Made by a program: the position numbers and the translations under genes
The notes under the pieces: generated by a model
Databases searched by the model: none
Seen by the model: the letters and a program-made list of their open reading frames with translations, nothing else
Told to the model about the DNA's origin: nothing
NCBI RefSeq assembly: GCF_022414535.1
Contig: NZ_JADWYM010000017.1
Location: 62,001 to 126,000, forward strand
Source: Streptomyces sp. MUM 2J
GTDB taxonomy: Bacteria > Actinomycetota > Actinomycetes > Streptomycetales > Streptomycetaceae
DNA: 64,000 nt
Direction: 5' to 3'
In this document: positions 58,422 to 62,650 of the stretch, piece by piece
How positions within the stretch are numbered: position 1 is the first letter of the stretch
Layout of the letters: each line of letters starts with the position of its first letter

Positions 58422-58445
58422 GCAGCGCGGAAGCGAGGTGAGGTG

Positions 58446-61400
58446 ATGACAGGCTGGCAGTTCTGGGTCGATCGGGGCGGCACGTTCACCGACATCGTGG
58501 CGCGGCGCCCGGACGGACGCCTGCTGACATGCAAGCTGCTGTCGGACAACCCCGCGCGGTACGCCGACGCGGCGGTCGCCGGCGTGCGTGCCCTGCGGGC
58601 GGACTCCCCGGACCCGGTGGAGTCCGTGCGCATGGGGACGACCGTCGCCACCAACGCCCTCCTGGAGCGGACGGGCGAGCGCACCCTGCTCGTCGTCACC
58701 CGCGGCTTTCGGGACGCCCTGCGCATCGCCTACCAGAACAGACCCCGTATCTTCGACCGCCGCATCCGGCTGCCGGAACTGCTGTACGAACGGGTTGTCG
58801 AGGTCGACGAGCGCATCACCGCCGACGGCACCGTCCTGCGCGCCCCCGACCAGGACGCCCTCGCCGGCCCCCTGCAGCAGGCGTACGACGACGGGATCCG
58901 CGCCGTCGCGGTGGTCTGCATGCACAGCCACCTCCACCCTGCCCACGAGCAGGCCGTGGGGCGCCTCGCCGCCGGTATCGGCTTTCCCCAGATCTCGCTG
59001 TCGAGCGAGGTCAGCCCGCTGATGAAGCTGGTCCCGCGCGGGGACACCGCCGTGGTCGACGCCTACCTGTCGCCGGTGCTGCGCCGTTACGTGCGGCAGG
59101 TCGCCGACGCGCTGCAGGGCGTCCGGCTGATGTTCATGCAGTCCAACGGCGGTCTGGCCGAGGCCGGGCAGTTCCGCGGCAAGGACGCCATCCTGTCCGG
59201 GCCGGCGGGCGGCATCGTCGGGATGGCCCGCATGTCCCAGCTGGCCGGCCACGACCGCGTCATCGGCTTCGACATGGGCGGCACCTCCACCGACGTCTCC
59301 CACTTCGCCGGCGCCTACGAACGGGTCTTCACCACCCGGATCGCGGGTGTGCGGCTGCGGGCGCCCATGCTGGACATCCACACCGTCGCCGCGGGCGGCG
59401 GCTCGGTCCTCCACTTCGACGGTTCCCGCTACCGCGTCGGGCCCGACTCGGCGGGCGCCGACCCGGGCCCCGCCTGCTACCGCGCCGGTGGACCGCTCGC
59501 GGTCACCGACGCCAATGTGATGCTCGGCCGCATCCAGCCCGCCCACTTCCCCGAGGTGTTCGGGCCCGACGGCGCCCAGCCGCTGGACGACGCCGTCGTG
59601 CGCGAGCGCTTCACGGCCCTGGCCCACGAGATCCGCGCCCGCACCGGCGACGACCGCACACCCGAGCAGGTCGCCGAGGGCTACCTGCAGATCGCCGTCG
59701 CCAACATCGCCAACGCCGTCAAGCGGATCTCCGTGCAGAAGGGCCACGACGTCACCCGCTACGCACTCACCACCTTCGGCGGCGCCGGCGGTCAGCACGC
59801 CTGCATGGTCGCGGACTCCCTCGGCATCCGCACCGTGCTGGTGCCTCCCATGGCCGGCGTCCTCTCCGCGCTCGGCATCGGGCTCGCCGACACCACCGCG
59901 ATGAGGGAGCAGTCCGTCGAGGCACCGCTGGAGGCCGCGGCCATGCCCGGCGTCCTCGCGACGGCGGACGACCTGGAAGCGGCGGCCCGTGCCGAGCTCC
60001 TGGCCGAGGACGTGCCCGCAGACCGCATCCGCGTCGCCCGGCGCGCGCAACTGCGCTACGACGGCACCGACACGACCCTCACCGTCGAGCTCACCGACCC
60101 CGCCGCCATGCGGAAAGCGTTCACCGCACGTCATCGGGCCACGTACTCCTTCACCCTCGACCGCCCGGTCGTCGTCGAAGCCCTCTCCGTCGAAGCCACC
60201 GGCCTCACCGACCCCCCCGATCTCTCCGCCCTCGCCCCGTACCAGGGCGGCACCGCCGCACCCGAGACCGTCCGTCTCCACGCCGGCGGTGCCTGGCGCG
60301 ACGTGCCCCTGCACCGCCGGGAGCACCTGCCTCCCGGCCACGTCGTCACCGGCCCCGCGATCATCACCGAGTCCAGCGCCACCACCGTCGTCGACGACGG
60401 CTGGCAGGCGGCGGCGAGCGACGGCGGCCATCTGGTGATGGAACGCGTGACGGTCACACAGAGTTCCGATCTCGACACGGAGGCCGATCCCGTCCTGCTG
60501 GAGGTCTTCAACAACCTCTTCATGTCCATCGCCGAGCAGATGGGCGCCCGGCTGGAGTCCACGGCCCAGTCGGTCAACATCAAGGAGCGGCTGGACTTCT
60601 CCTGCGCCCTGTTCGATCCGGACGGGAACCTGGTGGCCAACGCCCCGCACATCCCCGTGCACCTGGGGTCGATGGGCACCAGCGTCAAGGAGGTCGTACG
60701 GCGCCGCGGCGGGGCCATGCGCCCCGGCGACACCTACGCGGTCAACGACCCGTACCACGGCGGCACCCACCTGCCGGACGTCACCGTCATCACGCCCGTC
60801 TTCGACACGAAGGGTGACCGGATCCTCTTCCACGTCGCGTCCCGCGGCCATCACGCCGAGATCGGCGGCATCGCCCCCGGCTCCATGCCCGCGGGCAGCC
60901 GAACCATCGAGGAGGAGGGCGTCCTCTTCGACAACTGGCTGCTCGCCGACGACGGCCGGTTCCGCGAGCAGGAGACCCTCCGCCTGCTCACCGATGCGCC
61001 CTACCCGTCCCGCAACCCGACGACGAACCTCGCCGACCTGCGTGCCCAGATCGCCGCCAACCAGAAGGGCGTCGAGGAGGTCGGCCGCATGATCGGCGAG
61101 TTCGGCCTCGACGTGGTGCAGGCGTACATGCGCCACGTCCAGGACAACGCCGAGGAGGCCGTCCGCCGTGTGATCGACGCCCTCGACGACGGTGAGTACG
61201 CCTACGAGACCGACGCGGGCGCGATCATCCGGGTCCGGGTCCGCGTGCACCGCCGGGAGCGCTCCGCGACCATCGACTTCACCGGGACGTCGCCGCAGCA
61301 GGACACCAACTTCAACGCGCCGGTCTCCGTGGTCGTCGCGGCGGTCCTGTACGTCTTCCGCACCCTGGTCGCCGACGACATCCCCCTCAACGACGGCTGC

Positions 61401-62048
61401 CTGCGCCCCCTGCGGATCATCGTGCCGCCCGGGTGCATGCTGGCGCCGCAGCCGCCCGCCGCCGTCGTCGCCGGCAACGTGGAGACCTCCCAGGCGATCA
61501 CCGGCGCGCTCTACGCGGCCCTGGGCGTCCAGGCGGAGGGCTCCGGAACGATGAACAACGTCACTTTCGGCAACAAGCGCCACCAGTACTACGAGACCGT
61601 CGCCTCCGGCTCCGGCGCCGGTGACGGTTTCCCCGGCGCGAGCGTGGTGCAGACCCACATGACCAACTCGCGGCTCACCGATCCCGAGGTTCTGGAATGG
61701 CGGCTGCCCGTCCTCCTGGAGGAGTTCTCGGTACGCCGCGGCAGCGGCGGCGACGGGCGGTGGCGCGGCGGCGACGGAGCGGTGCGCCGCATCCGTTTCC
61801 GGGAGCCCATGACCGTCTCCACGCTCTCCCAGCACCGCCGCGTGCGACCGTACGGCATGGCGGGCGGCGAGCCCGGCGCTCTGGGCGCCAACAGCGTGGA
61901 GCACACCGACGGCACGGTGACCCGGCTCGGCGGCAGCGACGCCGCCGACGTCGCGCCCGGCGACGTGCTCGTCATCGAGACCCCCGGCGGCGGAGGCTTC
62001 GGCCCGCCGCCGGCCGACCCCCCATCGAGCAGGAGAAGAAAGCGATGA
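58446..62048 (+). CDS. Fused hydantoinase / 5-oxoprolinase (HyuA-HyuB, eukaryotic-OPLAH-like)
   Basis: A 1200-aa enzyme that ATP-dependently hydrolyses 5-oxoproline or a hydantoin. The N-terminal HyuA half (1 to about 670) is of the actin/ASKHA type: [82 protein letters not shown]. The HyuB half (about 685 to the end) has [67 protein letters not shown]. The fused, full-length form resembles eukaryotic 5-oxoprolinase. ATG at 58446 is chosen (GAGG 7 bases upstream; GTG one codon earlier possible). Its TGA overlaps cvnD in an ATGA, placing it inside the conservon operon. Confidence 0.93.
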
Positions 62049-62650
62049 TCCTCGGGCGTTCCGCGCGTGGCAAGCCCCCGGTCGAACCCGTCACACTCAA
62101 GATCCTCGTGGCGGGCGGCTTCGGCGTGGGCAAGACCACTCTGGTCGGAGCGGTCAGCGAGATCCGGCCCCTGCGCACCGAGGAAACACTCACCGAGGCC
62201 GGGCGCACCGTCGACGACACGCAGGGCGCGGAGGCCAAGCACACCACCACCGTGGCGATGGACTTCGGCCGCATCACCCTGCGCGACGACCTCGTGCTGT
62301 ACCTCTTCGGCACGCCCGGCCAGGAGCGGTTCTGGTTCATGTGGGACGAACTGTCCGAGGGCGCCCTGGGCGCCGTCGTCCTCGCCGACACCCGCCGCCT
62401 GGAGGACTGCTTCGCCGCCGTCGACTACTTCGAACGCCGCGGCATCCCCTTCGTCGTCGGCGTCAACTGCTTCGAGGGTGCCCCGCGTCACCCGGCGCAG
62501 GACGTGCGCAGGGCACTCGACCTCGACGACGACGTGCCGCTCCTCCTGTGCGACGCACGTGAGCGCGCGTCGGTCCGGGACGTCCTCGTCGGCGTCGTCG
62601 AACACGCGATGACCTGTGCCGCGGACCGGCGCGAGGTCGTCACCGGGTGA
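62045..62650 (+). CDS. cvnD: Conservon small GTPase CvnD
   Basis: A 201-aa MglA/Ras-like GTPase: P-loop [20 protein letters not shown], switch region [13 protein letters not shown], Walker B/switch [18 protein letters not shown], and GVNCFEG in place of NKxD. Cytosolic partner of CvnA-C. ATG overlaps the TGA of the oxoprolinase gene, so its translation depends on ribosomes finishing that enzyme. Confidence 0.95.

Follow-up and report, generated by a model that had tools for sequence, protein, structure and literature searches.

Why does the gene of a large enzyme stand between the third and the fourth gene of a conservon, and is it a partner of the surrounding G-protein system or only a lodger in its operon? 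The question arises from a 64,000-nt stretch of Streptomyces sp. MUM 2J (contig NZ_JADWYM010000017.1, positions 62,001 to 126,000; hereafter the window), in which a fused hydantoinase/5-oxoprolinase-type gene, hyuAB, lies between cvnC and cvnD. The locus is genuine: it is a variant of a known operon that extends over a clade, and the enzyme gene inside it is under selection. With a probability of about 0.66, we read hyuAB as the gene of a lactam hydrolase of the 5-oxoproline type that has lodged in a conservon junction tolerant of insertions. The elements of the locus are as follows.

54628..57588, plus strand: cvnA, histidine-kinase-like sensor (Pfam NIT and HATPase_c)
57585..58016, plus strand: cvnB, roadblock/LC7 protein (Pfam Robl_LC7)
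58026..58421, plus strand: cvnC, DUF742 protein (Pfam DUF742)
58446..62048, plus strand: hyuAB, fused hydantoinase/5-oxoprolinase-type ATP-dependent lactam hydrolase (by Pfam)
62031..62035, plus strand: Shine-Dalgarno-like AGGAG of cvnD (from sequence), inside the 3' end of hyuAB
62045..62650, plus strand: cvnD, small Ras-like GTPase (Pfam ATP_bind_1)

All five genes follow one another on the plus strand in the order cvnA-cvnB-cvnC-hyuAB-cvnD. Gene starts were taken from a simple codon-usage caller; for cvnA an upstream alternative start exists, and the ATG of hyuAB at 58446 has an alternative GTG at 58443. The coordinates and the Pfam domains confirm the preliminary description of a HyuA-HyuB fusion placed 24 bp after cvnC, whose stop (TGA, 62046-62048) shares the 4 bp ATGA with the start of cvnD (ATG 62045). 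As in other Streptomyces conservons (AGPS), the four core genes with the expected domains are ordered on a single strand, and CvnA is of the NIT type, like those of cvn1-6 in S. coelicolor in the accessible text of PMC8510531. The difference is the one extra gene, which encodes a 1200-residue enzyme and separates cvnC from cvnD. In all seven of the other cvnB-C-D runs of the window genome cvnD is found within about 100 bp of cvnC; an eighth run is without cvnD. No prior description of a conservon with an oxoprolinase or hydantoinase, or of cvnD with "oxoprolin", was found in full-text searches of a library of open-licence papers.

The junction was surveyed in a sample of 150 genomes of the genus, among which the 132 with an orthologous CvnC at E <= 1e-45 were classified and the 18 without it were not. 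hyuAB stands between cvnC and cvnD in 44 of the 132 genomes, alone in 41 and with an added cassette of minus-strand genes in three. A bare 20-nt overlap of cvnC and cvnD with nothing between them was found in 55 genomes, a short gap of 13-763 bp in 28, other genes in four, and the cassette with only a hyuAB stub in one (G011). The variant is hence not limited to one strain, which the preliminary description had named as the case that would undo its argument. An insertion in a single strain or an assembly artefact was considered and rejected in view of the 44 carriers and a further draw, in which 9 of 9 new loci among the best-scoring matches carry the cvnC-hyuAB-cvnD arrangement. Among the best-matching 80 HyuAB loci from named genomes, 22 adjoin cvnC and cvnD, all of them in records titled as Streptomyces; in the other 58 the flank (up to 7 kb per side, shorter on small contigs) is free of conservon genes. 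Five loci were also picked by hand; G184 and G163 have the arrangement, and G190, G228 and G270 (78-81% identity) do not. An identity threshold implying conservon location was considered and is broken by G103 (83%) and G190 (81%), whose close copies lie outside conservons.

A tree of the "quick" type was constructed from CvnB, CvnC and CvnD (132 rows, 477 columns). The 44 carriers belong to a single clade of 66 genomes, supported by a Shimodaira-Hasegawa-like approximate likelihood ratio test (SH-aLRT) value of 95, together with the cassette-only genome and 21 of the short-gap genomes. The clade contains none of the genomes with the 20-nt overlap, and the seven remaining short-gap genomes lie outside it. 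The carrier state changes 16 times on the tree, with 10 changes forced by well-supported branches. Change counts alone cannot separate gain from loss, and the direction is read from remnants of hyuAB that persist in some non-carriers: 75 residues in G124, two pieces in G093, 28 residues in G011 and 5' stubs, recognised by eye, in G091 and G108. We infer one gain and about 15 losses, at least nine of the latter on well-supported branches if a single gain is assumed. hyuAB is absent in 22 of the 66 clade members, all with an intact cvnD; in all but one of the 132 genomes at least 180 of the 201 residues of CvnD are matched, and the exception, G035, lies outside the clade. Distances of HyuAB and of CvnBCD agree among the 44 genomes (Mantel r 0.78, against 0.41 for the largest of 2000 permutations), and this agreement fits joint vertical descent.

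A second tree of the same type was built from HyuAB (1222 columns) with 66 conservon-borne copies, which are the 44 of the genome draw and the 22 of the named genomes and include four pairs of identical proteins, and with 40 other copies; the loci of G190, G228, G270, G184 and G163 and the nine later loci are outside it. The conservon-borne copies group together with a single outside copy among them, that of G103, which stands beside those of G021 and G002. In G103 the conservon itself has a short gap, and hyuAB is found elsewhere, in a pxpA-pxpB-pxpC-hyuAB run. The geometry of G021 and G002 is particular, with 29 bp from cvnC to hyuAB and 102 and 180 nt, respectively, from hyuAB to cvnD. The conservon group is part of a wider clade of actinobacteria, and its nearest relative is not the 66-72% identical copy found in many other Streptomyces. 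In the three genomes inspected (G044, G052 and G006), the latter copy stands upstream of the same conservon, about 12-16 kb from its cvnC, and in G006 it adjoins pxpABC.

The encoded enzyme appears intact. HyuAB is a single chain composed of Hydant_A_N, Hydantoinase_A, Hydant_A_C and Hydantoinase_B, and it matches PDB 7hk5, a fused N-methylhydantoinase, over nearly its full length with 474 bits. It thus has the whole domain order and the ATP-binding and metal-binding motifs of OPLAH, HyuAB, CapAB and N-methylhydantoinase. Its best NCBIfam models include CapA (332 bits) and CapB (159 bits), for both of which the cut-off is 1000 bits, and all its NCBIfam matches are far under their cut-offs. Caprolactamase activity requires D11 and D295 of CapA and D41, H99, D102 and H124 of CapB, according to the accessible text of PMC8453981. 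The counterparts by alignment, D10, D277, D718, H776, D779 and H803 of HyuAB (P0002), are invariant in all 66 conservon-borne copies. The DxGGTxTD and DxGGT phosphate motifs, the GxxPGP adenosine motif and the CapB-type D-H-D-H metal ligands are all present; the 66 copies show no variation in the two phosphate motifs, the four metal ligands or PGP of the adenosine motif, whose first G is kept in at least 90%. Furthermore, 324 of the 344 columns that are invariant in 40 free relatives are also invariant in the conservon-borne copies. None of the 66 genes has an internal stop, and the median ratio of nonsynonymous to synonymous substitution rates (dN/dS) is 0.17 over 946 pairs. With this ratio, the kept catalytic residues and the unbroken frames, hyuAB is under purifying selection. 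HyuAB is therefore predicted to be an active ATP-dependent, ring-opening lactam hydrolase, a prediction that is part of the reading to which the above probability applies.

Genome context points to the substrate. About 13 kb upstream of hyuAB, the window encodes the prokaryotic 5-oxoprolinase PxpABC, which is unrelated to HyuAB in protein family and possibly acts on the same substrate:

42908..43777, minus strand: pxpC (CT_A_B), prokaryotic 5-oxoprolinase subunit (Pfam domain, named by layout)
43774..44400, minus strand: pxpB (CT_C_D; Pfam)
44397..45155, minus strand: pxpA (LamB_YcsF; Pfam)
45501..46208, plus strand: GntR/FCD regulator, divergent from pxpABC (Pfam; PxpR-like by position only)

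The layout of pxpABC with the divergent GntR gene resembles pxpR-pxpTABC of Corynebacterium, as given in the accessible part of PMC13274462. Among 58 hyuAB loci away from conservons, 11 have pxpA, pxpB or pxpC in the flank, two of them with a pyroglutamyl peptidase as well. Separate pxp-hyuAB arrangements were found at L023, L024 and L028, which belong to other families, and in G103. The cluster of G103 (L124, 2185-10750) comprises genes for a pyroglutamyl peptidase, a DUF979 protein and a further membrane protein, followed by pxpABC and hyuAB, and is likely a 5-oxoproline locus. A PxpA match is present in 134 of the 150 genomes. Of the 16 genomes without PxpA, 14 have HyuAB, compared with 88 of the 134 in which PxpA is matched (one-sided p = 0.06), and G002, G080, G130 and G142, all without PxpA, have HyuAB in the conservon only. 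From this context, the substrate of HyuAB is most likely 5-oxoproline (pyroglutamate) or a near relative; in the former case it would be a 5-oxoprolinase (EC 3.5.2.9), which turns 5-oxoproline into glutamate at the expense of ATP.

A total of 102 genomes have a close HyuAB, 44 in the conservon and 58 elsewhere; eight genomes in which only fragments or distant matches occur are not on this list, and a few copies in two pieces (e.g. those of G119 and G005) count as positive. Two close copies in one genome were not found among the matches listed, with four candidates scored in each of the 102 genomes, and the best other match in the window genome is partial and 29% identical. Of the 22 clade members without hyuAB at the junction, three (G103, G092 and G146) have a copy elsewhere and 19 have none among the matches listed. 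With one listed copy per genome, either in the conservon or elsewhere, and with its absence from some, HyuAB thus behaves as a single-copy, dispensable metabolic gene with a changeable address.

The junction itself accepts other genes. A TauE-type permease gene and a GntR gene, the latter by eye, were found there in G086. In G064 a TetR gene and an alpha/beta hydrolase gene stand there with two opposite-strand genes, one for a SpoIIE-type phosphatase and one for a MASE1-like membrane protein (MASE1 and TetR by eye); G137 has the same by eye, and G043 has a Rieske/DUF2231 gene on the opposite strand. G086, G064 and G137 belong to a single small clade that includes three short-gap genomes, so the four junctions represent at least two insertion events and not four. 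The four junctions with unrelated genes are loci L193, L202, L219 and L221. The cassette noted above lies on the minus strand between cvnC and hyuAB in G122 (L133), G128 (L141) and G022 (L132), partly degraded in the last. It encodes a thioesterase, a 3-hydroxyacyl-CoA-dehydrogenase-like enzyme (carnitine-type by eye), BKACE and an IclR regulator, with Pfam assignments for L133 only. The same cassette accompanies the hyuAB stub in the conservon of G011 (L119). Since the junction tolerates insertions, the conservon is better described as host than as partner.

The boundary of hyuAB and cvnD had been taken, in the preliminary description, to make translation of cvnD dependent on the enzyme gene. 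However, cvnD has its own ribosome-binding-like site, the AGGAG at 62031-62035, and the overlap alone therefore does not tie its translation to hyuAB. Each of the 66 conservon-borne copies has CAGGAG in the 20 nt that precede cvnD. Starts of cvnD were placed by match to CvnD of the window, an estimate that is off a start codon in G064, G112, G035 and G043. The spacing is a 20-nt overlap in 58 copies, a 4-nt overlap in four, 3 nt apart in two, and 102 nt and 180 nt in one each, so that the 4-bp overlap of the window is the rare form. The 20-nt overlap is also the geometry of cvnC and cvnD in the 55 genomes without hyuAB at the junction, and the last codons of hyuAB run out of frame across the cvnD start as those of cvnC do outside the clade. 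With the same overlap in hyuAB-free genomes and a Shine-Dalgarno-like site of its own before cvnD, the overlap is ruled out as proof of coupling. Among the 44 carriers, 41 have an out-of-frame stop within cvnD, and in 38 it is the stop of hyuAB; of the 22 clade non-carriers, 14 have one (p = 0.004, uncorrected for relatedness). The bias is explained by the need of hyuAB itself for a stop. An internal promoter was considered as well, and a sigma-70-type scan of 57950-62850, which is weak for Streptomyces, gave no plus-strand match and one on the minus strand. No terminator-like site was found in the scan of this interval.

The following course of events is proposed. hyuAB would have entered the cvnC/cvnD junction of a standing conservon in the ancestor of a large Streptomyces clade, related genomes outside of which have cvnC and cvnD overlapping by 20 nt. 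Judging from the 24-bp gap and the scan for terminator-like sites, it would be transcribed on the cvn message, and cvnD would rely on its own ribosome-binding site for translation, coupling being an extra. The role of HyuAB would be metabolic and lie outside the GTPase cascade, any regulatory link would consist in shared expression, and the conservon would be host and not partner. The earlier argument for functional integration instead of chance insertion survives in part. Inheritance over the clade and purifying selection speak against a chance event in one strain, whereas the losses, about 15 with cvnD kept, leave functional integration of hyuAB into the GTPase system unsupported. Nor can integration be argued from the overlap, given the unrelated, partly antisense genes at the same junction, the hyuAB-free junctions with the 20-nt overlap and the conservon proteins themselves: no residue of CvnB, CvnC or CvnD was found to track the presence of hyuAB, the best column being matched by 13 of 100 unstructured permutations, and co-adaptation of these proteins to hyuAB was rejected accordingly.

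Several observations weigh against the reading of a lodged 5-oxoproline hydrolase. hyuAB is kept in 44 of the 66 clade members with fixed spacing, which points to a partner, and this retention together with the out-of-frame stop bias would also fit some coupling. pxp neighbours were found in only the 11 of 58 relatives, several of which represent one inherited Streptomyces neighbourhood, and the pxpA association reaches only the one-sided p value given above. Because pxpABC is present in the window genome, HyuAB may be superfluous as a 5-oxoprolinase, or its substrate may be a different lactam. The conservon hyuAB of G184 (L246), which is not among the 66 copies, consists of two overlapping frames, a split that reflects either incipient decay or an error in sequencing. 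Finally, a second insertion in the line of G021 and G002, or a move out in the line of G103, is possible, because the former two differ in junction geometry and the HyuAB tree places their copies beside the pxp-linked one of G103.

It is unlikely that HyuAB is a working fifth component of the system, be it by supplying a ligand for CvnA or by serving CvnD as effector or metabolic read-out in the way that MfpA serves MfpB in mycobacteria. Such a role would be in line with the conserved position and spacing over a large, vertically inherited clade and with the neighbour effectors or modulators published for conservons, MfpA (PMC4316618) and CvnF8 (PMC13343842), in the accessible text of these papers; like cvnE, cvnF and mfpA, hyuAB is an extra gene tied to a conservon. 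Against it stand the 22 clade members that lack hyuAB beside an intact cvnD and the residues of CvnB, CvnC and CvnD, none of which was found to follow hyuAB. The known accessory genes also differ. In the accessible text, cvnE (P450) and cvnF (GAF) follow cvnD and accompany a CvnA with no extracellular sensor domain (PMC8510531, PMC13343842), and mfpA follows its conservon (PMC4316618). In contrast to cvnE and cvnF, hyuAB precedes cvnD and its CvnA has NIT, which was found in 7 of 7 CvnA scanned with and without hyuAB, a hand-picked subset of loci. Slightly less likely still is a metabolic fifth component gained by the conservon in this clade, in which HyuAB would be the effector or sensor enzyme for a G-protein system sensing or setting 5-oxoproline (glutamate/glutamine status) and its gene position would fix the ratio of enzyme to GTPase.

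The cassette suggests another origin, in which hyuAB arrived within a larger IclR-controlled catabolic unit and acts on its substrate. Its presence between cvnC and hyuAB in G022, G122 and G128 and beside the stub in G011 agrees with this. The gap between cvnC and hyuAB is nevertheless a uniform 24-25 bp in 53 of the 66 copies and 29 bp in two basal ones, so the cassette looks like a later addition, and some HyuAB relatives elsewhere lie near pxp genes; we regard this origin as quite improbable. Least probable is that, irrespective of the activity of its product, hyuAB owes its retention to translational coupling, in which reading through the gene would adjust the amount of CvnD to that of CvnABC. 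The identical 20-nt overlap in most copies and the commoner out-of-frame stop in carriers would suit such a role. That stop, however, lies in cvnD codons and follows from the need of hyuAB for one, the carriers G021 and G002 have long spacers between the two genes, and the catalytic sites are conserved beyond what a mere reading frame would need.

Another conservon was noticed just upstream of the window start (G000:C17:57482-61041, L233), with cvnA, cvnB and cvnC, of which cvnA was named by eye. No cvnD match was found in the 14 kb examined; conservons missing the GTPase gene are already mentioned in the accessible text of PMC4316618. On its 3' side lie a carbon-nitrogen-hydrolase-like gene and then an amine-oxidase-like gene at window positions 70-1782, both named by eye.

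A large enzyme gene, or genes on the opposite strand, can thus come between the first three genes of a conservon and the last, with the GTPase gene still kept. This bears on how conservon G-protein systems are expressed and on the inference of function from operon neighbours. The many natural pairs of carrier and non-carrier species offer a simple test of partner versus lodger.

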